Positions 1,517 to 26,619 of a DNA stretch of 27,083 nucleotides are shown one piece after another. Each line of letters opens with the position of its first letter. Position 1 is the first letter of the stretch. Under the pieces are notes generated by a model that had not been told where the DNA came from, searched no databases, and saw only the letters and a list, made by a program, of their open reading frames with translations. The DNA lies in the NCBI GenBank assembly GCA_024220525.1, contig JAMYWO010000289.1:1-27083 (forward strand). Reading direction: 5' to 3'. A program made the translations under genes and the position numbers. The DNA is from Cochliopodium minus. Lineage: Eukaryota; Discosea; Himatismenida; Cochliopodiidae.

Positions 1517-4500
1517 TTAGAGAATGCTGCAATGATGATGACTTTGAACATCACCACCTTCACTAACCTCAAACCCGTTAGGCTTATTGTAAGTATCTTG
1601 GTAGTTGTAGAAGAGTTGGTCGATGTAGGGGTTGATAAAGGTTCCTCCTTGATCGAAACGAGTTCTTACTTCTTTCCAAAGCTTGAAGGAAGTGTTGAAC
1701 TCACTACTATTAGGGTATTTGCTGAACTCGGGGTCATCATATATTCCTTTAAAATAAATCAATTTAAGAAAACAAAAAATAATAAAAATAAATTTAACCA
1801 AAAAAAAAAATAAAAAAAACAAAAAATTAAAAAATAATTATATTTTAAAAAAATTTACCTCTAAGATGCTTCAACATACCATCCAATGAAGAGAATTGTT
1901 TGGCATGGTGAACGCGGATGTTATCTCCATAGTTCTTTTTTGGTTGTTGGTAGCAAGTGGTCTGCTTGTTCATTTCTACGAAAATAAAAATAAAATAAAT
2001 AAATAATAAAAAATAAATAATAATAATAAAAAATAAAAAATAAATGATTACCATTATAGAAATCAACCCACCAAGGATTAGGAGAGTTGGAGACGATTTC
2101 AGGAGCTGCAAACCCCCTGTTTGCAAGACCCTTGCCCTCTTCAGAGTCAATGAGAGGCTGGTGGTTGTATTGCATGCTGAGGGGAGAGTTGGAACCTCTC
2201 AAAAATCTCATTTCGCAGTTGATGGTAACTGGAAATTCGTTGTGGTTTTCGAATCTGTCTTTCACGTTTCTGATCAAATTTCTATGTAATTTTTTAATTT
2301 TTAATTAATTTTTTTTATATGTTATATTTTATTTTATTTTTTTATTTGTCATTTTTAAATATAAAATTCAGGCATGAAAAAATTAATTTTTTATTTTTTT
2401 TTCAATAAAATTTTTAAAAATTTTTATTTTAACTTTTTCAAAATTTATTTTTAATTAATTTATTTTTATTTTGTATTATTTTTTAAAAAAATTTATTATT
2501 TTTAATTATTTCTATTTTTTAATTTTAAAACTATTTTAATGATTTTTTTTTACCCAAAAGCACCTATGACGTTGGTGAATCCCTTCTCGTCAAAAGAAGG
2601 CACTGGAACTTCCCACTCAATATCCAAAACAGGAATCAATTCCACGACAGCAGTCGCATCAAGAACAGGGTGACTTTTAAAAAATAAAAATAAAAATATT
2701 GAAAAAAAATGAAAATAAAAATAAAAAAAATAAAATGTTAACAATAAAAAATGAAATAATTTAATAAAAATAAAAAACAACAAAAATAATTAATAAAAAT
2801 AAAAATAAATTTCAAAAATTTAAATAACTAAGAAAAAAATTATAAAAATATACTTTGCGATCCATTGGGGTATTCTCCATACTTCTCCTTTGGTTATAAG
2901 CTTTCCTTCAGAGTCGAAAGAAGGTTCTTTCCCCCAATTTATTTTTCCTACCCAACTGCACATCTAAAAAAAAAAGTGAAATTGTAAATTAAAATGAAAA
3001 TAAAATAAATGAATATTTATTTGAAAAATAAATTACCAAAGCAATGAATTTGATCATGAACAATCCAACCTTTTTGAATAAAGGGTTGTTGTAAAGTGTG
3101 TTTGCCCACCTATTAATTAAATTAACAAAAAATAAATACAATTTAAAAAAAATGAAATTAAAAACATATTAATGAAGAAATTAAAACCAAAAAAAAAAAT
3201 TTAAAAAAATTTACAAAAAAAAAAAGAAGAAATTAAAAATTTAAAATAATGTTAAAAAAAATTGTTAAATTTAAAATAAATTAAAAATTTAAAATTAAAA
3301 AATAAAAAATTAAAATAAATCTTAAAATAAATCTAAAAATAAATTGTAAAATTTAAAAAAAAATATTGAATGATAAATAATAAATAATAAAAACTTTTGA
3401 AAAATGAAAATAAAAAAGAAATTTTTACTTCCAAATTCTGGAAGCGAATTGAGCGCCAACACTTTGGAAGGCGAGCTGAGCTACAAATACGGGAGAGTTA
3501 TAGTTCTTATCTACGACGTCGTATTGTAATTTTTGCTTCTCATTAAGTTCGTTGGTCATTGTTTTGGTGATTGTCACATAAGGTGTATGTGTGACAGTAC
3601 CTAAAGAAAAATGAAAAAAAAATTTTAAAAATGGTAAAAATAAAAATCAAATTAAAAAATTTTAATGAAGAAAATAATATAAAAAAAATAAAAAAAAAAA
3701 AAAAAAAGAGGAAATTAAAAATAAAAAAAATCAAAAAAATCAAAAAATTTAACAAAGAATGTGAATAAAGAATCAAAATAATAAAAATAAAATATAGTAA
3801 AAATAAAAATCAAAAAAAAAAATTAAAATAAAGAAATTAAATAAAATATAAAATATAAAATTAAAATAAATAATAAATTTTGGAATAATGTTAAAAATAT
3901 AAATTAAAAAACCTCTTAATAGCTGTAAGATGCTTGGTTGGTAAATGTTGTCCACAGTGAAAGGGAAATGCCAGAATTCGAGAGTGTCCCAGTCGTTGTT
4001 GAGGTCGTTGAGGTTCTTGGCGCAGGAAGGTTCAGTTCCGAAGTAGTCTGCCCATTTTCCTGCTTGAGAGACGAACAATGCATGTATCTTTGGTTGAACG
4101 AGAATGGTCATGTCATACCTATTAAATGAAAAAAAAAAATTTAATAAGAGCTTATCAGTTTCTAACAAATAAAAAATAAAAAATAAAAAATAAAAAATAA
4201 AAAATAAAAAATAAAAAATAAAAAATAAAAAATAAAAAATAAAAAATGAAAATAAAAAATAAAATAAAAAATAAAATAAAAAATAAAAATAAAAATAAAA
4301 ATAAAAAATAAAAAATGAAAAAAAAAACATCAAAAAAATTTTGTTGCAATAAAAAGTTTAAAATGTCAAATTTTTTACACAATACCAAACGCACCTAAGT
4401 TTACTTGAGCAGCTCTCCAGATGTCTTCAGGAGTAAGTTTCTTTCCCTCTCTTTCCAACAACCAAGTAGCAGGTGTTCTTTTATCTCCATTTACTTCCAC

Positions 4501-6463
4501 GCATTCTTGAGGAGAAACTTCGACTACCTTTCCATTGGAGCAAACGAAGGTCATTGCAATAACCAAATCGGATAAGACAGTACATTTTTTACCTAATTTT
4601 TACATTATGAAAAAATATTTTTTAGAGATACTAAAAAATTTAAAAAATAATATAATTATTCAATAATTTTTTTTCAATAATTTTTAAAATGAAAAAATTT
4701 GTTAGAAAAAATGAGAAATAACAAATATGATAACTGTGAAATAAAAATAATAAAAAAATCAAATCAAATGAAAAATTAAAAAAATAAAAAACAAATATTA
4801 CCAGTTCCATGGGACGAGGTGACACCAATACCAGCCATCGTAAAGACATCCTCAATGGTTGAAGCCTCCAAAGAATAACCCAACTTCCAAAGAGCCTTCT
4901 CGAGAGTACCAGTAGTGATACCAGGAGAGGTGGTGACGGTAGTCTGAGGTTTATCCTTGTAAGAGATGGAAGGGTTTTCGGTACGAGGATCCTTTTCGTT
5001 GATTTTGATGTAGTGGTCTCCGCTTTTGGGGTCAATCAATATTCTTCTATTGTCCACGAGAATGCCGTTGGTAGTGTGGATTGGTGACCAAGAATGGCAG
5101 CTTCCAAACAACTTTTTTTTTTTCAATAAAAATTAGTTAAACGAATAAAAAAAAAGAAATTGTTAACATATGTTTAAAAAAAAATTTCGAAAAAACTTTA
5201 AGATTACAATTAAAATATAATTTAATATAATAATTATTTAATAATAAACTTTTAAAAATAAAATTTATCTATATATAAAGGATTCTAAAATCATATGAAT
5301 ATACAAAAATAACGTTTTAATACTATTCAAGAAGTTTCTAACAAATTAATTTTTCATTTTACCTTTATTATCTTATTCTTTGATGTTGCAAGTTGTGTGA
5401 TCGCCACCAAATGTTCTTTTGTGATAGGGGAGTAGTAATACTTTGGGAAATGCACTCCAATCTTTATTTTTTTGTTGACATCTTTTCCATCTGTATGATA
5501 AAAGGTTCCATTCTCGTAGAGCAAGAATCCTACTGTATCTTTTGCATCATCTGAGAAGATGAATTCAGGTGTATTCAACAGGGTTTCTCCGAAATTTCTC
5601 CATTCTTTGCCTGATATGTGATTGATTTGATTTTTGTTTGCAAAGAGATCAATCAAAAGTTTATCTCCAACATATTTCAAGATTTCAAACACCTATTTTT
5701 GTTACAACATCAAAATTAATTTTTTTGAGAATTATAAAATATTTTATGAGATGTATATGAGGGATATGATAATGATTATTGAGATATTATAAAGAATTGT
5801 ACTTTTATGATCAATATATTGGAATTTAAATCTTTTGGAATATAAGACAAATATTTTTTATTTTATTATTAATTGGTTTACTTTCTTGATTGCTTCTTCC
5901 AACTCCTTGATGATCTTTGAAAAGAAAGTACATGCTTTTTGGGCTTCTTCATTCTTTTGTTGAGGATGCAATAATGACTTCAATAAATCAACCAAGTGAT
6001 AATTGGTGGTGAAATCAGAGCTGAACAAATCTACTGGTGGCTTATCTTCCCTTTGAATGTTCTCAAAAGTATTGTTTTGAATATCTTTGAGGGCGGTGAT
6101 TGAGAAATTATCAGTTGTTGAGAAAACATGATGATCCTTGAATAGATCATTTTGATAGAGATATCCCATCTGATTTACTTGATTGCAAAAAGAAACAACT
6201 AACAAAAAAAAAAAAAAATTAAAAATAAATAGAAATGTGGAGATATAAAAATAATTTTGATAATTTCATTTTTTAGTTAAAAGAAAAATTGAATTTGTTT
6301 TTCAATTTCCAAATATGAATTTCAGATCAAAATTTAATAGCATAGATTTGATTGGAATTTTTTTACTTGGTATTTCATCATCATGATGTACAGTAAAATT
6401 GAATAAATGATCATGTATTGGTTCAGTTTTTTTGTTCCCTGGTGGATAAGAATCATCTTTCAT
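1517..6463 (-). CDS. FAD-linked oxidase, PCMH type (aldonolactone-oxidase-like), paralog A, with C-terminal CaaX
   Basis: Flavoprotein oxidase of the VAO/ALO superfamily; substrate unknown. Thirteen exons: 6463..6367, 6198..5882, 5692..5363, 5111..4802, 4592..4379, 4118..3913, 3600..3429, 3109..3037, 2963..2854, 2673..2554, 2281..2052, 1975..1859, 1746..1517; 841 aa. The FAD domain starts near residue 225. GSCHSWSPI contains His254, the usual covalent-flavin position, and SSHGTG (347-352) is the second FAD-contacting loop. The C-terminal half has the ALO-like basic/His stretch NIRVHHAKQ. At 841 residues it is much longer than typical ALO/GULO enzymes (about 440-600), mainly through a ~220-residue N-terminal extension I do not recognise. 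It ends HHHCSIL, a CaaX box. Donors are GTAAA-like except GTTTTT after exon 6. A possible acceptor lies just before the ATG, and a hydrophobic 35-codon ORF lies upstream (6700..6593), so an extra 5' exon cannot be excluded. Family and exons are well supported by paralog B; the function is inferred. Confidence 0.9.
4168..4320. repeat. (AAATAA)n hexamer array in oxidase A intron 5
   Basis: At least eleven hexamer units, degenerating into AAATAAAA and AATAAA mixtures, fill most of the 260-nt intron 4378..4119. Long translations across it (runs of F, Y, L and I) are artefacts of the repeat. Confidence 0.85.
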
Positions 6464-6999
6464 CTAATCAAAAAGAAAATGAATTTTAAGAAGGATTGAT
6501 TTGAATTTACTTTTATAAGAATTAAAATTAGTTTTTTTTTATTTTTTTTTTAATTTTATTAATTTTTTTTAATAAAATTCATATTTTTTTTATTAATTTT
6601 TTTTTAAAGATATCTTAGTTATGTGATCCAAAATTTGTTTAGTGAAAATCAGGATACAGAAGAAAAAGTAAAACAAAATCAAAACAAACAAAAACAACAT
6701 TTTTTCGGAACAAAATTAATTTTTTTAATTAATTAATTTTTTTCTTAAATAAGGAAATTTCATTATAATTTTTTCAATGATTTTTAGTTTTCAATTTTAA
6801 AAGAAAGGTTAGTTATTAAGTATTGTTGAAAGATAAATTTGTTTGTTATATTTTTTTTTCTTTTGTTGAGGAATTTATCCACAATTTTTAATTAAATTAT
6901 TTAAGAGGCATATGAGAAATTTTTTAAAAAGAACTTGTATTATTTTGACCATGTTTCTTTCATTCTATTGATTTATTGAATTTAAATAAAAAAAAAAAA
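6464..6999. other. Divergent spacer between oxidase A and the type II membrane protein gene
   Basis: 536 nt with no clear gene; it should hold both promoters. The one notable item is a minus-strand 35-codon ORF at 6700..6593, starting MLFLFVLILFYFFF and ending TAA. It could be a uORF or a hydrophobic first exon of oxidase A: a GTATCC donor inside it and an AG at about 6457 would join in frame. Nothing comparable is visible upstream of paralog B, so I left it out of the model. Confidence 0.5.
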
Positions 7000-8427
7000 A
7001 TGATAAAGGGTTATTTCAAAGTGAGGAGATTTATAATGAATCTAGTGTTGGATTATACGAAGTGCATTACCATCAAAAAATCATTAATAATCATATTCAT
7101 ACTATGTATACTGGTATTTATAATTATATTTGGATCAGAAGAAAATATATCAGCAAAAGAATTCGAATGGGAAGAGATTATACAAGAAAATGATCATGAT
7201 TATCAATATAATAAAGATAATATAAATATAACATCCATCAAACAAAAGTACAATAAAATCTCAACTGTGATATTAAGGAATTTCAGTGAAATAATGTATC
7301 AACATGAAACATCAAAGAAATACATCAAAAATAAAAGAATAAAATTTGGAGCTGCTTTAAAAACAAAGAAGGGATTCTACCACACTCTAACAAAGTTAAT
7401 TTTTTTCAAACATTTTTTTTTCAAAACTGTCAAAATCCTTTCTTGTAACTTTGATTCAAGTTGGCAGCTAATAAATTGTTACATCTTAAATAATGAAAGA
7501 AAATTAGATAATCCAAAAATGTTGATGATTGAAGGTAAAAAAAATTTAATTTTAAATTCACTTTAAAAAAAAAATTTCATTTAAATAAAAAAAAGATAAT
7601 CAGAAAAATTTTTAAAAAAATAATAAATGCAATTGTTTTAATGTTTTAGGAGAAATAATTTATATTTTTCAAAAGAATGAGAAATCAACAATCATTCAAT
7701 CATCAAAAGAGTATGAATTTAAGAACTCCAAAGTGGAGGAACGTTCCGCAGATATAATATGGACCCCTTTTTTCAGGAGAAAAAATGAGTTGTCTTTTGT
7801 ATACACTTTTGATCCTTTGGTCTTGTTGAAATGTCATTATAAAGAAAGATATTTGTGCGATTCTATTTTCAAACAAACAAATTTACCAATAAATAAAAAT
7901 AAATTAATAATAAATGGAGGTGAAAAATTCCTAATAAAAGTTTTTTTTAAAATTTAATTTTTAATTTTTTAATGTTCAATGTTAATTATTTAATTTATTT
8001 TTAATTTATTTTAGGTTCACAAAGCTTGATTTACAAAGAAAACTTTCTGATCAGTTTCGTTCACTCAAAATTGACTTGCCATAAATCACCATTCGGCTAC
8101 CTCCACCATACCCACCTCTCCCTCATCGACATCTTCACCAAAAAAATGTTTCACATCAGTCCACAACTAAAATTGACAAACGTGACTGCTTACATTGTCG
8201 ATCCCGTCTCTATAATCGAACACAACATTCTTAATGATACCATTGATGTTTCTTTGAATGTTAATAATGACTTTGTTCTTCATGTTCGGGTTTTCGGTTG
8301 TTTTTCTCTTGTTGACCGGCTTGTCGCTTTGAACTTCAACACTTTGAATCATGGTCTTGGTTATTTTGAGTCTCATGTTAAGAATGAGCTCTTTCACACT
8401 TGCAATAGAATGCCCATTTTAAAATAA
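7000..8427 (+). CDS. Type II membrane protein, candidate beta-propeller glycan-active enzyme
   Basis: Three exons, 7000..7534, 7650..7919 and 8015..8427, give 405 aa. A short basic cytosolic tail precedes one transmembrane helix at about residues 29-45 (SLIIIFILCILVFIIIF); the rest should be lumenal, the topology of Golgi glycosyltransferases. The lumenal part has W-T-P-F followed by LSFVYTFDPLVLLKC, then INGGSQ and, about ten residues later, FLISFVHS. This W-x-P-F / Y-x-x-D-P-L / GG / F-x-H-S order resembles protist and giant-virus proteins with a five-bladed propeller fold (GH32/43/130-like). That assignment is from memory of the pattern and is moderate at best. The second donor is GTGAAA at 7920, chosen because it restores the GG motif; reading on hits a stop at 7957. 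It lies 186 nt upstream of the CaMK gene on the same strand. Confidence 0.6.
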
Positions 8428-14163: not shown

Positions 14164-17100
14164 TCACTTTTCATTTTTTTCAAAGAATATTTTATCAGAT
14201 ACAAATTGAAAATTATCAAATTTCTTTTGAGATAAAGGAGAGATCTGTTCCAAAACCACAGAATCTAAAAAAAAAGTTTATTTAAAAAGAAATAAAAAAT
14301 ATAGGAAAAAAAAAATTAAATCTAACCTTTCAAACTTGAGTTAGTATATTCCTTATCAAAATATTTTAAGTCCGTAGCCATTTTCTAATTTTTAATTTAT
14401 TTAATTTTAAATTGTGTAAAAAAAATTTTTTTTTTTACCAATTTTGGTTTATATGGAGGTTCAACTGTTTGGAAATTGTAAAAGTTAGATATTGTTGTGT
14501 TGTTAAAATTTTATTTTTTCTTACTTTCTTTTCTCATAAATTTTTCCCAATCTGTCTTCACAAAAAAAGCGCTCGATTTAATTTCACTAAAAAAATATTG
14601 AACAAAAATAAAAATAAAATAAATAATAAAATAATAAAATAATAAAATAATAAAATATAAAAAATAAAAATAAAAATAAAAAATTTAAAAATAAAAATAA
14701 ATATGATGAAATAATTTATAAAAGAGTTCTTAAAAATTTATTTAAAAAAATATGGAACAAAAATACAAAATACAAAATACAAAATACAAAATACAAATTA
14801 AATAAAAATAAAAATAAAAATAAAAATAAAATAAAACAAAAATAATAAATGGGTTCTTAAAAATTTTATTTAAACTTATAAATAAAAATAAAAATAATAA
14901 ATGGGTTCTTAAAAATTTATTTAAAAAAATAAAAAAATTAATATAATTTATAAATAAACCCTAGAACAAATTTTAAAACTTACATTTCTGTAAATCTTGT
15001 TTGAGGATTCTTAGAAAGTAATCCCCATATGAGCTCCCTTAGAGTAGAATCCATGGTGCCGTCGAAGGCAGGGTCGACGCGGAGAATGAGATCAAATAGC
15101 TCGTTCTGCTCTTTGGAGGAGAAGGGGAGGCAGTTATAAAAGAGTTCGTACAACAATATTCCAAATGACCACCAATCCACTTTTTTTTTGTATTTTAAAT
15201 ATTAAACAACAATTTTAATAAAACCAAAAAAAAATTACCTTCAAAGTTATACCTGAAAATTGTTTATTTGTTTGCAAATGGATAAAAAAAAAAATCAAAA
15301 AAAATAAAAAATATTAAATTAAAACCAAAAATAAAAAAAATTGATTTAAAAAAAAAATTAAAAAATATTTGAATAAAAAATGTTCTAAAAAATTGATTGT
15401 AAAAAGTAAATATTATAAAAATGAAAAATAAAGTCAAAAAAAAAAAAAAAAAAATTTATTTTTACCCACTCGTTTTGTGATTTTTCAACTTTTTTTTAAC
15501 AAAAAAAAACCAATTGAAAATCAAAAAAAATATTTTAAAAAATTGTTTTACCATTTCTGGAGCTATATATTCCAGCGTTCCAACAATACTAAATGTGTTT
15601 TGGCAATTTTCTGAAATTTTGGACAAACCTTTTAAAAATAAAAATAAACAAAAAAAATAAAAAAATAAAAAATAAAAAATAAAAAATAAAAAATAAATCA
15701 TAAAAAAATATTTGAAAAAATATTTGAAAAAATATTTGAAAACTTTAAAACTTTAAATTTTTTATACCGAAATCTGTTATGAGAATGTAACCGTCCAAAC
15801 CTATTAAAATGTTTTCTGGTTTGAGGTCTCTAAGGATAATTTGATTGGCGTGGAGATGTTCTATTGCTAAGATGAGCTGGGCTCCAAAAAAATGGACAAG
15901 GTCCAAGTCTTTGTAAACTTTCTTCAACGTGTACTTTCAAAAAAAAAAAAGAAAAAATTTAACGAAGTTAATTCAAAAAATAAATGAAAAAATTTAATGA
16001 AAAAAAAAAAGAAAAATAAAAAATAAAAAAAATAAAAAATAAAAAATAAAAAATAATTATAAAAAAAATTATTCAATTAAATTACAAATTAAAAAAAAAA
16101 AAAATTTTTTTACCATGTGATAATGCAAATCACCACCAGCTACATACTCTAGACCCAAAAACAGTTTAGATTCACTTGAAAAAGCGAACTGGAGGCCAAT
16201 GATGAAGGGGTGGTTGATCTGAGAAAGAATGAGTTTCTCTATGAAGGTGTTTTTGATGTCTTTGTCGCTGTTCACCAAGTTTTGCTTTCTAATTGCTTTT
16301 ATGGCGTATTTTTTTCCTGTTGGTTTGTATCTTACTTGCCATACCTTTGAAAAAAAAAAATAATTAAAAATATTGTTAATAAAAAATAAAAAAATAAAAA
16401 AAATAAAAAAATATAAAAAATATTGTTGATAAATTTTATGTTTTATTTTAAAAAAAAATTTAAAAGTAGGAAATAATTTATTAATATTACTTTTCCAAAC
16501 TTTCCTCTTCCTAAAAGTTTCAACCACTCAAATTCTCCTTCGTTCATTGTCTCTTTCTACAAAAAAAAATAAAAAAAAAAGGTGAAATTAAAAAAAATTT
16601 AAAAAATTGAAATGTATTTAAATGAGAATAAAACGGTTTCTCTATTTTTAAAACATATAAAAAAGAAATTTTTATATTGAAGCTATTTCCGCTATTTAAA
16701 TGAAAAAATAAAAAATAAAAAATGTATTTCCGCTATTAAATAAAGTTACAATTTGATAATTAAAAGAAATTTTGATTTGAGGTATAGATAATTCATCGTT
16801 TCCCCCTTTTGGATTTCCCTCAACAAAGTACCAAGACTCTCCCTTTATTCTTATGTCTGTTTTTTCCTTTTGGAACTTTTGAACCAAGTCTTTAAGGTTA
16901 ATGTTTATGTGGCCGAAGTTATCTGTAATTGTCAATAGAGGAATTTTTCTTGGAAGATTGAGCTTCAGTTCTATGAAAGAGTTTTCTGGTATGTTTATCC
17001 TTTTACAGAAAAAATAAAAAATCACTTTTAATTTGAATTTTTTTTTGATTGTATTTAAGAAATTTTAGACATGTCCAAATATTACAACTTTGTTAGCGGA

Positions 17101-18327: not shown

Positions 18328-19677
18328 TTAGTTTGCTCTCTTCAAGAACATTCCGGTTTGGATATCAATGAATGCTTGCATCAAATCTTCTTGGCTGGCT
18401 AAAACAAAAGGTCCTCTCTGAAAAATAGGTTCTCCCTAAGAAAAAATTTAAAGTTAAAAGTGTGTAAGTTTATTAAAAAAAAAGATTGTTTACGATAGGT
18501 TTTGCAGCAACTAAAATAAATGAAGCATTTTTGTTTTCACTACTTTTGATTGTTACAGTGTCACCTTGTGAATCAAACACGACAATGTTACCTTCGTCCA
18601 AATTGGAATTCAAGTCTCCGAATGAAGCGGAACCTTCGAAGAGATATGCAAAACAGGTGTGTCCTATAGGGATGTGATGTTGGAAGGTTGTGTTTGGTGG
18701 AAGTCTGACGTCCAAGAAGATTGGTTGAGTAGCAATTCCGTTGACAGGTCCAACAGTCTTTTTTTTGTTTTTAAAAAAAAAAAAGAAATTAGTATGAAAT
18801 TTGAAGAATTCAAGGATTAAAAAGGGATTATAGATATATTGATGATCTATCGGAAAGAATGGATCAATCTTTATTATTTTTCTTAATTTTACCTTTTCAT
18901 ATTCTCCTGCAATCACTTTGATTTTGATATTATCTTTCTCCACTGTGGGGATGTCTTCTGGCTGGATATCTTGGTATCTTGGCTTGCACATCTTCTCCTT
19001 CTTGGGCAAATTGATCCACATTTGGAAACCATGAACCATTCCCTCTGTCTGTTTGGGCATTTCAGAGTGGATAATTCCGGCCTGTTTTTAAAATATAGAG
19101 ATTTATAATTCATTTCTAAATCATTAGTGTTGTATGTGACAAGATAATCAATGTATTTCAAAATTATTTATTAATATAAATCATTTTATCGATCATTTTT
19201 TCTTTGAATTAAAAAAAAGAATATTTTACACCAGCTGTCATCCATTGAACTGATCCATCTTTCAATAGACCAACATTTCCCATATGATCTCTATGTTCGA
19301 ATGATCCTTTCAACATATAGGTCACTGTTTCGAATCCTCTGTGAGGATGATCAGGAAATCCCTCGATGTAATCTTCAGGGTTCTCATTCTTGAATTCATC
19401 TAACATCAAGAAGGGATCAAGATTTTTCAACTTGTTGGTTCCGATTGATCTGTGGATCAATACTCCTGCTCCTTCCATCATACCTTTAACAAATACAATT
19501 AATTTTGATATATGGGTGAAATAAAAGATAATCTCAATATATGAACAATTTATCCACAATATTATTGTTTGTTTGATTAAATGTTCTATTATTGATTATG
19601 AATCCATTATTAGTGACATATTTAAAAAATATACCTTGGCTTTTAAAATATTTTGATACTTTTCTAATATTGTTCAT
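18328..19677 (-). CDS. Pirin (cupin-fold iron protein)
   Basis: Five exons: 19677..19635, 19483..19230, 19081..18893, 18757..18494, 18435..18328; 285 aa, close to the ~290 of human pirin. Pirins are bicupin proteins binding one metal ion in the N-terminal barrel; members act as nuclear cofactors or quercetin dioxygenases. The N-terminal barrel shows DPFLMLDEF, then DHPHRGFETVTYM with two His ligands and WMTAGAGIIHSEMP with the third His and the Glu ligand; all four are present. The second half includes GPVNGIATQPIFLDVRLPP and a tail GPFVLASQEDLMQAF. The short first exon (14 codons plus one base) uses the ATG at 19677 and joins with a GGT codon across the splice. Nothing appears broken. The cellular role here cannot be told from the sequence. 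Confidence 0.95.
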
Positions 19678-20850
<1,173 letters not shown>

Positions 20851-21673: not shown

Positions 21674-24600
21674 ATGATCAGCAACGAAACAAAACAAAAT
21701 GATCCACAATGTAAGATTTATATTGTTCAAAAATATCCATATTAATTCGAAAAATATTTTATTTTCCACATTCGAAATAAATATAAAATTTTTTTTAATT
21801 AACATGTTTATAAACAATTAATTTCTTAGTGATCGGCTTTTTGAACATGGTGAACAAAATAGGGACAGAAGTGAGACCAGATATGTTTGATGATTCTCGT
21901 CAAATCAATTGCAGCGAGCCTGGACATTTCGAAAGAGTGAATATAATGATGGATGATAGCAATGCACCAGTAAGAGTATTCAGCACAAAGCATGAAGAAG
22001 CAAAGTAAAAAAAAAAAAATATCAATATTAAAGATATCTCACAAATTTTAGATGAATACTATTCACATAAATATCATTCTCTTGATTAAAAAATTTTTCA
22101 TATTTAATTGTTGAATTTAATTTTTAAAAAATATTTCATTGTGATCAAATTCACCTTTAATTTGGGAATTTATAATTATTTTGAGAATTTGATACCACAT
22201 TCCATTAATGATAATTCTTAAAATTGACATTATTTTTTTTTTTTATTTTCATTTTTAAAAAGGGAAGTGACACTCAGAGAGCTGGGAAAACAAGAACAAG
22301 ATCAAGTTACAATGGAAACAGTTTTAAAAACAGTCTTGAGCGAACACAAAGATGAGGAAGAGAAAAAAATCTCCAGCAAATTCATCAGCCTCTTCAAGAA
22401 TCTCGAAAAGGATGTAAACAGCATCATAGATGAGCTCAAAACGAAGGCAAACCAACTTTTGATAGATCTTTTCGCCAACAAAAAACAGATCAATCACATC
22501 ACAGGGGAGAACTGGAGGAACTTTGGGGAGACGTTGCTCAACAAACCAACTTTTATCTTCTCTGATTATACAAAGTTAGATGAGAACGACAAAAAGGTCA
22601 AAGAAGACACTCACTTATTGTACGAGGGAGGTCATTTTTACATCGAGCATGAGAACAAGTCCAAAACTCCTTTTGATCTAAAGCACGCAAAGTATCCCGA
22701 CACTCACTTTAGTTCTCCTGTTTCCATTCAACACTTGGTTGCTATTGTAGAACTGGCTAAGCAAACACACAAAGTAGTTAGGGTAAAAAAGAATTTTTAA
22801 TTTTTTTATTTGGAAATATATTGTTAAGTTTTTATTTTGTTAATTTAAGTTTAAAGACGATTATATTTTTATTTTAATTATTTATTTCTTTTAATTTTTT
22901 TCTTCTCATTATCTTTATTAAAATTTATTTTTAAACAGGCTTTTGGAAGTTGCCACTCATGGTCACCCATCCACACTTCTGACGGAATCCTCGTTGACAA
23001 CAGAAAGCTCGCTTCAGTAGACGGGAAACACGAAATCAAAATCAACAAGAACGACCCTCGTACCAAACACTCCACCATCTCCAAAAAGAACGAGCTCAAA
23101 ACCACTGTCACCACCTCTCCTGGTATCACTACTGGTGATTTGGAAAATCAGCTCTGGAAGTTGGATTATTCCTTGGAAGCTTCAACCATTGAAGATGTCT
23201 TCACTATTGGCGGTATAGGTTTCACTTCATCCCACGGAACTGGTTAAATTTTTATTAATTTTTTCACCTGAATTAATTTTTATGAAGTTCTATTTTTCTA
23301 AACTTTTTGTTCAACTTTTTTTACTCAATTCAAATATCTTTTCTTCAAATATAATTCCAAACTTTTTGTTTGACTTTTTAAATTTTGATATTTTAAATTT
23401 TGAAATTTTTTTTTTTTAATAATATTTTTGTTTTTTAATTTTACGAAATTCAAACTATATTTTAATAATTTCAATTTTTTATAATGTAAATATTTAGGTA
23501 AAAAATTTACTGTTGCTTCCGATTTGGTTATTGCAATGACTTTCGTTTGCTCCAATGGAAAGGTCGTTGAAGTTTCTCCTCAAGAATGTGTAGAAGTAAA
23601 TGGAGACAAAAGAACACCTGCTACTTGGTTGTTGGAAAGAGAGGGAAAGACACTCTCTCCTGAAGACATTTGGAGAACTGCACAAGTAAACTTGGGTGCG
23701 TTTGGTATTGTGTAAAAAAAATTTTATTTAATTTATTTTTATATTTATATTTATTTTTATTTATTATTTTATTTTTTATTTTCTAATATAAATTTTTTTG
23801 ATTTTATTTTTTTGATTTTTTTTTTTATTTCATTTTTTATTTTTTATTATAAATTTTAATTTATTTTTATTTATGTTTTTATTTTTATTTTTTATTTTTG
23901 TTTTATTTCACATTTATTTTAACATTTTATTTTTAAAGATATGATATGACATTGATTGTTCAACCAAAGATGAACGCTTTGTTTGTCTCCGAAGCAGGAA
24001 AATGGGAAGAATACTTTGGAACAGATCCTTCCTGCTTGGAAAAACTCAGCAAGCTCAACGAAGAGTGGGACACTCTCGAATTCTGGCATTATCCTCTCAC
24101 TGTGAATGAACTCGACAAACCTTCTTCTTTGAACATTTTGACTGGTGAGTTTTTTTTTATTAATTTTAGAAATTTTTTAATTTTTTAATTTATTTATTAC
24201 TTTATTTTGTGTTAATTTGATCGTATTTATATTTTTGGTTTTTATTTTTATTGTATTTATTTTTTTGATTTGATTTATATTATTTTTATTTTTATTTTTT
24301 GATTTTTTGATTTTATTTTTCATTTTTTATTTTTATTTTTTAAAAAATATTTTTATCAACTTTATTTTGTAATTTGGTTGTGTTATCAATTAAAAATTAA
24401 AATCATTTTTTTAATTTTTATTTTTCATTTATAAAATGAACTTAATTTTGTATTTATTTTTTTAATTTTTTTATTCATTTAGGTAAGGTCACTTATTGCC
24501 CATATGTAACAATCACCAAGACAATGACTGACAAGCTCTCCCCCAGTCAAATGGAAAAATACGAAATAGTTGAAAAGAAAGTTGATTCTTCCGAGTTCAT

Positions 24601-26619
24601 TTCTCAATTGGCTTTCCAAAGTGTTGGTTCCAAGTTTGCTGCAAAGTTTTGGAAGTAAAAATCATTTCTTTCAATTCTTTTTTTTTTTTTATTTATATAA
24701 ATATATTTATATATTTTCTTTGTTTGTTTTTTAATTTTTCATTTTGTATTTCGATCATTTTTACAATTTTTATAATTTTAGATTTATTTTTGAATTTTTA
24801 ATATTTTTAAATCATTTTTTTATTTTTAAATCATTTTTTTGTTTTGTTTTTTAATTTTTTTGTTTTATTATTTTTCTTTATTGTATAATTCTCATTTTAA
24901 AAATTGTAAATTTTTGATGTTAATAATTTTTCTTAATTTTTGAATTTTCAAATCATTTTTTTTATTTTTTATTTATTATTTTTTCTGTTATTTTTAATTT
25001 CTAATATTCTTATTTTTAAAAATGTACAATTTTTGATTTCAATAATTATTTTTATATTTTATTTTTTATAGATAAATATTTTTTGATTAATTTTTTAATT
25101 TATTTTGTTTATGCAGATGGGCAAACAAAGTTTACCAAAACAAGATAACCAGAAAATTGGGAAGACTCTTGATCAAATACATCCTCGTCTTCACAGGATG
25201 GGTCGGAAAAATCAGATGGGGAAAGGAGCCTGTCTACGACAAAGAGGGAAAGCTCGTCCAAAAGGGGGAAGTATGGAGCGTCCCTCAATATTTCGCTAAG
25301 TAAAAAAGTTTTTTTTTTAATTTTTTATTTTTTCTTCTTAAATTGTTATTATTGTTAATTTGACTTTTTTTCATTATTTTTTTTATTATTTTTATAATCT
25401 TAATTTTTTATTTTTTTTTCGTTATTTTTTTTATTTTTATAATTTTTATAATTTTTTTTCATTTTCATATTTCTTAATTTCATTTTTTATCAATCAATGT
25501 TTACATTTTTTTTTCATTTCTTTTTATTTTCATAATTTTCATCTTATTTGATTTTCTTTTAATATTTTATTTTTATTTTTTATATTTTATTTTTTAATGG
25601 TTAATTTTTATTTCATTTTTTTATTTTTTATTTGTTAGTCACCCTGTGATTGATGCAACATCCGTTGTAGAGAAGATTCCTTGCCTTGATATTGAATGGG
25701 AGGTTCCTGTTCCTACCTTCCAAGAAACTGTAGGTTTGAAACACACCGTCGAAGTATACGGGTAAATAACAAAGATAAAATTAAAATTAAAATTTAAAAT
25801 TAAAATTAAAATTAAAATTAAATTTAAAATTTAAAATTAAAATTAAAATTAAAATTAAATTTCTTTTATTTTTTTTTAGACATCTCATCAGAAACGTCAA
25901 GGAAAGATTCGAGAATCAAGAATACCCTGTTTCCATCAATGTAGAAATGAGATTTTTGAGAGGATCAGGTTCTCCATGTAAATCTCTTTTAAATTATTTT
26001 TTTACAATTAAATTATTTTTTTACAATTAAATTTTTTTTTATAATTAAAATATTTTTTTATTTTTTATTTTTTTTTTTTTAAAAAAAGTGAGTATGCAAT
26101 ACAATCAACAACCATTGTTCGACTCTGAAGACGGAGGAGAAATAGTCAACAAGGGATTTTCTGCACCAGAAATCGTCTCCATGTCTCCTAACCCTTGGTG
26201 GCTCGACTTCTACAAGAAAATGAACCATGACATCACCACCAACCACAAATCTTTTGGTGAAAATATTCGTGTGCATCATGCTAAGCAATATTCTTCACTG
26301 ATGGAATGTTAAAGTATTTAAGAGGTAAATTTTTAAATTAAATTTTTATTTTTATTTTTTTAAAACTTTTTTAATTTTTTTTTTTCAAAAGGTATTTATG
26401 ATAACCCTCAGTTTTCCTTATGATCACAAGGACTTTAACACATCTTACAAGATTTGAGGGAGGTCAGAACTCGTTTCTGATAAAGCAATATGTTCTTGAA
26501 CCTCACATCGACCAACTCTTCTACAACCACAAAACACCTACGAAAAGCCAAATGGTTGTGAAGTTAGTGAAGAAGGTGGTATTGTTCCAAAGAAAAACCA
26601 CACCTGTGTCATGTTTTAA
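21674..26619 (+). pseudogene. FAD-linked oxidase, PCMH type, paralog B; 3' end carries frameshifts
   Basis: Paralog of oxidase A. Exons: 21674..21710, 21830..22004, 22263..22782, 22939..23242, 23498..23711, 23939..24144, 24483..24654, 25117..25299, 25639..25761, 25880..25977, 26089..26324, 26392..26619. The first ten exons are fully open: flavin-His motif GSCHSWSPI (His250), SSHGTG, and the conserved LLIDLFANK/NFGETLLN block of the N-terminal extension. In exon 11 one base is missing near 26300 relative to paralog A, so translation stops at 26310-26312 after 751 residues (ending SSLMEC). Exon 12 is still clearly homologous but has at least four more small indels, several of them GG or CC runs shortened by one. 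Its last frame ends HTCVMF, a CaaX box like that of A. Either the gene is decaying at its 3' end or the sequence is locally poor. Intron donors include GTTAAA (intron 4) and GTGAGT (intron 6). Three large introns (24145..24482, 24655..25116, 25300..25638) hold only T-rich DNA. Confidence 0.82.
25777..25862. repeat. (AAAATT)n array in oxidase B intron 9
   Basis: Units of AAAATT/AAATTA with occasional extra A or T fill most of the 118-nt intron 25762..25879, arranged as two similar ~40-bp halves. Confidence 0.8.

Follow-up and report, generated by a model that had tools for sequence, protein, structure and literature searches.

Gene A of the amoeba Cochliopodium minus likely encodes a prenylated, probably dehydrogenase-type flavoenzyme, a divergent relative of the aldonolactone oxidoreductases, that is held on a membrane. 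The strength of this assessment derives mainly from the anchor, prenylation of the gene A product being by itself very likely to judge from the sequence. The sequence-only reading of the window (the whole stretch of 27,083 nucleotides that was analyzed) had proposed a lipid-anchored flavoenzyme that perhaps gives H2O2. The anchor is well supported indirectly, by the boxes CVIL and CAIL kept in two paralogs, by the prenyltransferases of the same genome and by the endings of its GTPases, whereas the H2O2 part is not.

CaaX boxes are chiefly familiar as the anchors of small GTPases, lamins and a small number of chaperones and enzymes; flavin redox enzymes of this class are, to our knowledge, not known to use them. 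No report of a prenylated aldonolactone oxidoreductase or FAD_binding_4 enzyme was found among the matches listed in a word-matching search of the open-access literature. In the A family, an already known type of anchor would be joined to a divergent enzyme from a superfamily that is also known. A box kept through gene duplication would show redox enzymes re-sited to a membrane by a tail of four residues, and a paralog that lacks the box (C9) provides a natural comparison for those that carry it.

C-terminal tails of gene A and its paralogs

As summarized in Table 1, gene A runs on the minus strand from 6463 to 1517 and was modelled from the sequence as 13 exons in one frame of 841 amino acids, with introns of 73–319 bases that are all of the GT-AG type. 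Minus-strand positions 1517–1746 are exactly the last exon, which is entered at the acceptor TTTTAAAG/GAATAT and ends with the stop codon at 1517–1519, and the encoded C-terminus reads ...GGDVQSHHHCSIL (in a longer stretch, ...YIDQLFYNYQDTYNKPNGFEVSEGGDVQSHHHCSIL). This 13-exon model confirms the earlier claim that the last exon of gene A, then called oxidase A, ends in CSIL. Because CSIL and the conserved block LWKEVRTRFD..F.NPYIDQLFY share one exon and one frame, joining the box to the enzyme requires no splice choice.

Table 1. Exons and other features of gene A and paralog B, in positions of the window.
Feature	Positions	Strand	Remarks
Gene A exon 1, proposed start codon	6367..6463	-	least certain exon
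Gene A exon 2	5882..6198	-	
Gene A exon 3	5363..5692	-	
Gene A exon 4	4802..5111	-	part of FAD-binding domain; GSCHSW (H254, place of FAD-linking His); gatekeeper T333
Gene A exon 5	4379..4592	-	
Gene A exon 6	3913..4118	-	donor GTTTTT, least usual of the gene
Gene A exon 7	3429..3600	-	
Gene A exon 8	3037..3109	-	most of moderately hydrophobic stretch VGLFMIKFIALMCSWVGKI, mean hydropathy 1.73
Gene A exon 9	2854..2963	-	
Gene A exon 10	2554..2673	-	
Gene A exon 11	2052..2281	-	E-x-R (E673, R675); aligns with GalDH E-x-R stretch
Gene A exon 12	1859..1975	-	H749 and K752 of H-x-A-K, both residues unchanged across the five paralogs
Gene A exon 13 (last)	1517..1746	-	conserved C-terminal block, hydrophilic tail, CaaX box CSIL, stop
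Gene A CaaX box Cys-Ser-Ile-Leu and stop codon	1517..1531	-	
Paralog B, readable part	21674..26304	+	whole gene, including 3' end, 21674 to 26619
Paralog B exons 1-6 of 11 readable	21674-21710, 21830-22004, 22263-22782, 22939-23242, 23498-23711, 23939-24144	+	
Paralog B exons 7-11 of 11 readable	24483-24654, 25117-25299, 25639-25761, 25880-25977, 26089-26304	+	
Paralog B 3' end	26290..26619	+	A-like reading shifts frame at least 5 times; last frame ends CVMF and stop

The window also contains paralog B, which is 58% identical to A across 723 comparable aligned positions. Its first ten exons show no stop and no frame change, and its last two (26089–26619) show at least five frame changes relative to A, one in exon 11 and four in exon 12, as counted by eye; a separate comparison shows the switching in part. 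These changes reflect either decay or a local sequence error. An effect of the contig end was rejected, as the contig has 47,754 bases, of which the window is the first 27,083. The final frame, which starts at 26380, reads ...GCEVSEEGGIVPKKNHTCVMF and then stop, so that the letters CVMF reported for this tail are present. Lying in a frame-broken end, they lend the claim weak support, and B taken alone says little in favor of a functional tail.

When 592 residues of A were searched against the genome from which the window comes (598 contigs totalling 44.65 Mb, 24.1% GC), three further paralogs, named here by contig, were obtained. C197 (794 amino acids from the first modelled residue) ends ...GYIISEGGDVKENHTSNKCVIL, with the box CVIL, and C261 (727 as modelled) ends ...GFFISEMGGVNDVKNCAIL, with the box CAIL, whereas C9 (740 as modelled) ends ...GFEVLESGGVGTNFKERHASKNIKK and has no box in its modelled last exon. 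A cysteine at position -4 followed by a hydrophobic a2 and a suitable X is thus found in A, C197 and C261, is absent from C9, and appears in B only in the broken frame; the cysteine itself is at -4 in three of the four intact tails and in four of five with B included. No box is present at the end (NSHLKQLLNY) of the genome's ALO gene, L001 on contig C341, which passes the PF04030 cut-off.

The three boxed intact paralogs are 44–53% identical pairwise overall, and their boxes all lie within the exon and frame of the last conserved enzyme block, which leaves little room for an explanation by alternative last exons. The spacer that separates ..GG[D]V from the cysteine has 5 residues in A, 8 in C197, 5 in C261 and 7 in B, and these spacers share little, one histidine of A and C197 falling in the same alignment column. 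Despite the diverged spacers, the cysteine of the intact boxed paralogs remains fixed at -4 and a2 and X stay Ile and Leu, which bears out the proposal that the cysteine position was kept while the tail diverged and that this argues against chance. The tails preceding the boxes, e.g., EVSEGGDVQSHHH and ISEGGDVKENHTSNK, are hydrophilic and, as judged by eye, fit the hydrophilic, flexible linker of about 11 residues that is described as part of the CaaX motif (PMC1175975).

The five proteins together contain 39 cysteines among 3851 residues (1.0%), and the binomial probability of finding a cysteine at -4 in at least three of four intact tails is about 4e-6 under an assumption of independence that paralogs do not satisfy. 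Among stop-to-stop frames of at least 40 amino acids within the window, 6 of 269 have a cysteine at -4, that of A included. The positional constancy of the cysteine is a stronger argument against chance than the binomial value.

Prenylation machinery and endings of Ras-superfamily proteins

The transferases that would modify these tails are encoded in the same genome. Seven pieces that match PF00432 fall into two genes, of which C538 is the GGTase-I beta subunit (PDB 8rdx_B, E 9e-71, vs. 7.7e-33 for GGTase-II beta and 2e-25 for the best FTase beta) and C71 is the FTase beta subunit (2h6h_B, E 6.1e-67). The alpha subunit shared by FTase and GGTase-I is encoded by C123 (2f0y_A, E 5.7e-43); two further genes carry alpha-subunit repeats (C400 and C44). 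Matches to PF02517, the family of Rce1-like proteases, occur at three places (best C212, E 5.2e-12), although this family is broad and also occurs in 11 of 14 control genomes. The exon-wise profile search of this genome detected neither an ICMT (PF04140) nor a third PF00432 gene, the expected beta subunit of the Rab transferase, and therefore either such a search misses genes or these genes are absent.

The endings that the organism places on its small GTPases were sampled in the best 30 of 164 Ras-family matches (loci L015–L044), which include several near-identical copies. Within this sample, 25 of the 30 loci have a cysteine at -4, followed at X by Leu in 22 and by Phe in 3; three of the others (L015, L018, L020) end in CCN and two (L036, L043) stop early. 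The boxes are CSIL, CNLL, CNIL, CSLL, CNLF, CNIF and CSIF, and CSIL itself ends nine of the sampled loci (L017, L021, L022, L037, L038, L039, L040, L041 and L042). The enzyme tails are thus like those of Ras/Rho proteins, which are GTPases rather than redox enzymes, and they end in what the cell uses at this place. Met, Ser, Gln and Ala do not occur at X among the 25 Cys -4 endings from these best 30 of 164 matches. One Ras-family match, at C1:633782-634150 on the minus strand, lies inside a reported open frame of 14711 codons, which is very long at a GC content of about 24%.

The residues of the boxes are those described for GGTase-I substrates. A clear preference of GGT1 for Leu at X has been described, with some Leu boxes also farnesylated (PMC1175975). 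For Arabidopsis PGGT1, significant prenylation was reported only with Leu at X, a hydrophobic a2 was required, and CVIL was kinetically the best of four boxes (PMC3017772).

It is also conceivable that the box is a relic or a chance ending, i.e., that the cysteine has been kept by ancestry or for some other reason and that the proteins are soluble, as might be argued from the facts that every copy is a paralog within one genome and that C9 manages without a box. However, inheritance alone fits poorly with paralogs that have diverged to this extent, whose dissimilar spacers of 5, 8 and 5 residues still place the cysteine at -4 with residues suited to GGTase-I, and the letters are identical to Rho/Ras endings of the organism among the best 30 of 164 loci. 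This explanation is considered very unlikely, and a prenylated tail is preferred.

Enzyme class and active site

The A family is a group of divergent VAO/PCMH flavoenzymes, as judged from the sequences, that is nearest to the aldonolactone oxidoreductases. All five paralogs match FAD_binding_4 (A with 45.5 and B with 54.8 bits, vs. a cut-off of 26.4), whereas the ALO domain PF04030 is matched by two of the five at E up to 0.1 (best 0.0037), which falls short of membership in that family. All five also give matches to TIGR01678, the model for sugar 1,4-lactone oxidase, at a best E of 1.2e-18, with A reaching 67 bits vs. a cut-off of 397. In a profile search of the PDB, GalDH (8qmy/8qnr) came first with a whole-sequence E of 1.2e-4 that is spread over weak pieces, and a phmmer search of the PDB with gene A gave nothing at E <= 0.01.

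The active site was compared in an alignment of eight sequences, namely the five paralogs and three bacterial relatives. The histidine of SHSW/CHSW (H254 of A), which stands opposite a Leu of GalDH, and the motifs E-x-R (E673 and R675 of A) and H-x-[A/S]-K (H749 and K752) are kept in all eight. Arg388 and Lys456 of GalDH have been assigned to substrate activation (PMC11099136), and K752 of A would be the counterpart of Lys456 from the order of the motifs.

Covalent flavin attachment has been attributed to the replacement of this Leu by His (PMC11099136). GalDH, in which FAD is bound noncovalently according to the same source, is thus like the paralogs in its FAD domain, in E-x-R and in a gatekeeper other than Gly (Ala in GalDH, Thr in the paralogs), and unlike them in the Leu, in length (511 amino acids for 8qmy vs. 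727–841 for the paralogs as modelled) and in its described mitochondrial location; the A family has an N-terminal extension, and three of its four intact members end in a CaaX box. The oxidases GULO and ALO share with the paralogs the His for covalent FAD and the conserved Arg and Lys, and differ in having Gly instead of Thr at the gatekeeper, as described in PMC11099136. GULO is membrane-associated and has been described as an integral microsomal membrane protein, whereas the A family is predicted to be prenyl-anchored.

The gatekeeper position, which corresponds to Ala113 of GalDH, was set by a stretch that aligns without gaps to the A113G variant and to the enzyme from which it derives (8qmy/8qnc). 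All five paralogs carry Thr there and all three bacterial relatives Ala, so that the Gly that marks the oxidase branch is absent from the family; the corresponding residue is Ala in GalDH and Gly in GULO and ALO (PMC11099136). Read without gaps, the amoeba's own ALO gene has Gly at this place. A survey cited in PMC3541233 places Thr among dehydrogenases and Gly, Ala and Pro among oxidases. The Thr of the five paralogs therefore leans the assignment toward a dehydrogenase and away from local delivery of H2O2, and the earlier idea of an oxidase that serves this purpose is not supported by the residue at the O2 gatekeeper. Because the gatekeeper rule has exceptions, the dehydrogenase reading is a lean and not a proof, and it is held to be moderately probable on these residues.

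A prenylated oxidase, in which O2 re-oxidizes the flavin and the anchored enzyme releases H2O2 at the membrane, would agree with the presence of a His where oxidases attach FAD covalently and with the description that covalent flavin and oxidase activity occur together in opisthokonts (PMC11099136); moreover, the authors of PMC3541233 doubt the gatekeeper rule outside GalDH, and a review notes exceptions to it (PMC11505616). This possibility appears rather unlikely, however, in view of the Thr and Ala found where Gly would be expected and of the Gly in the organism's own ALO gene. The pairing of a His for covalent FAD with a bulky gatekeeper departs from both branches as described in PMC11099136, and the A family, for which a dehydrogenase is the preferred reading, lends itself to testing whether Thr at the gatekeeper turns a flavin enzyme that has the linkage His into a dehydrogenase. 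That the substrate is of the aldonolactone type is possible, at somewhat less than even chances.

Bacterial relatives, origin of the box and a model

An alignment of the five paralogs found no relatives in collections of genome contigs and of viral contigs. With an alignment of the FAD domain, one Myxococcales locus, L087 (a metagenome-assembled genome, MAG), was obtained from the genome contigs, and none from the viral contigs. A phage search gave none. L087 encodes a protein of 599 amino acids that aligns with C261 from the FAD domain to the final F-Y (29% over 620 columns), passes PF04030 (34.6 vs. a cut-off of 23.1), has GalDH as its best PDB match (E 2.5e-11), and ends soon after F-Y without a cysteine at -4. 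Three of 377 Myxococcota genomes, including its own, match this protein at E <= 1e-60, and the three tails end in KRSDG, QEASP and VVSNA, with no box. Two of the three relatives have a hydrophobic N-terminus (L087 as computed, with a mean hydropathy of 2.11 in this segment, and L092 by eye).

The sequence-only reading had suggested that C-termini of homologs be tabulated and had held that homologs of the same architecture lacking a C-terminal CaaX would speak against it. The tabulation gave both outcomes, boxes in C197 and C261 and none in C9 and the three bacterial proteins, and the objection is therefore valid in part; C9 is evidence that a tail of this kind can disappear or that the family once lacked it. 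In a tree with the bacterial relatives, the four boxed genes lie on one side of a weak branch (71/69; 72% of 200 bootstrap trees), which allows a single gain of the box after C9 split off. The bacterial proteins indicate that a box-less architecture exists, that tethering to a membrane may be older than the box, and that the substrate could be lipid-like. Taken together, these observations make it very probable that the prenyl anchor exists and that it was gained in the lineage of the amoeba.

The gene preceding that of L087 (L087:634-1635) encodes a Rieske protein with a KshA_C domain, of the 3-ketosteroid 9alpha-hydroxylase type, at the one locus with a named neighbor, and KshA_C is matched once in the genome of the amoeba (C446:7621-7860). 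Both observations, together with the N-terminal hydrophobic segments of two of the three bacterial relatives, would suit a membrane-bound enzyme that acts on a steroid or another lipid rather than on a sugar lactone and is brought to its substrate by the anchor. Nevertheless, a single gene neighbor in a single genome is thin, the proteins retain E-x-R and H-x-[A/S]-K from the aldonolactone active site, and cholesterol oxidase (3js8) matched in the PDB profile search only at E 0.12. A lipid substrate of this kind is thus regarded as unlikely, and an enzyme nearest to the aldonolactone oxidoreductases is retained as the preferred reading.

In the model favored here, proteins of the gene A family would be synthesized in the cytosol, and GGTase-I, possibly in part FTase, would place a prenyl group on the last cysteine, after which a Rce1-like protease would remove the last three residues. 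The prenyl lipid would then hold the flavoenzyme at the cytosolic face of a membrane, where it may oxidize a lactone, a sugar alcohol or another hydroxylated substrate, and O2 is a less likely re-oxidant of its flavin than an acceptor that is a protein or is carried in the membrane. The anchor would have arisen in the lineage of the amoeba, two of the three bacterial relatives carrying an N-terminal hydrophobic segment instead. The most specific form of the model, in which lineage-specific, GGTase-I-anchored flavin dehydrogenases at the cytosolic face pass electrons from a lactone or lipid substrate to a membrane acceptor and the prenyl tail has replaced the N-terminal helix of the bacterial proteins, is tentative and on the doubtful side.

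The nearest functional parallel found, by analogy, is the Arabidopsis 6-phosphogluconolactonase PGL2, likewise an isoform of a lactone enzyme that ends in CSIL, is prenylated and reaches a membrane site, at the ER, together with G6PD5.4 (PMC12609287). The A family, as presented above, consists of flavoenzymes. PGL2 is a lactonase of the pentose phosphate pathway and not a flavin redox enzyme.

Several other features surround genes A and B in the window. A single-exon Arf GTPase (PF00025, 1.8e-74) lies between them at 20323–20850 on the plus strand, and pirin exons (18476–19595) and a protein kinase fragment (16072–16527) lie on the minus strand. Upstream of gene A, three open frames at 6949–8427 on the plus strand are perhaps one intron-containing gene; two of the three were examined (6949–7566 and 8005–8427), and neither has a Pfam match. 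About 95 bases past the end of gene A, a tRNA-Gly (TCC) occupies 1352–1422 on the plus strand.
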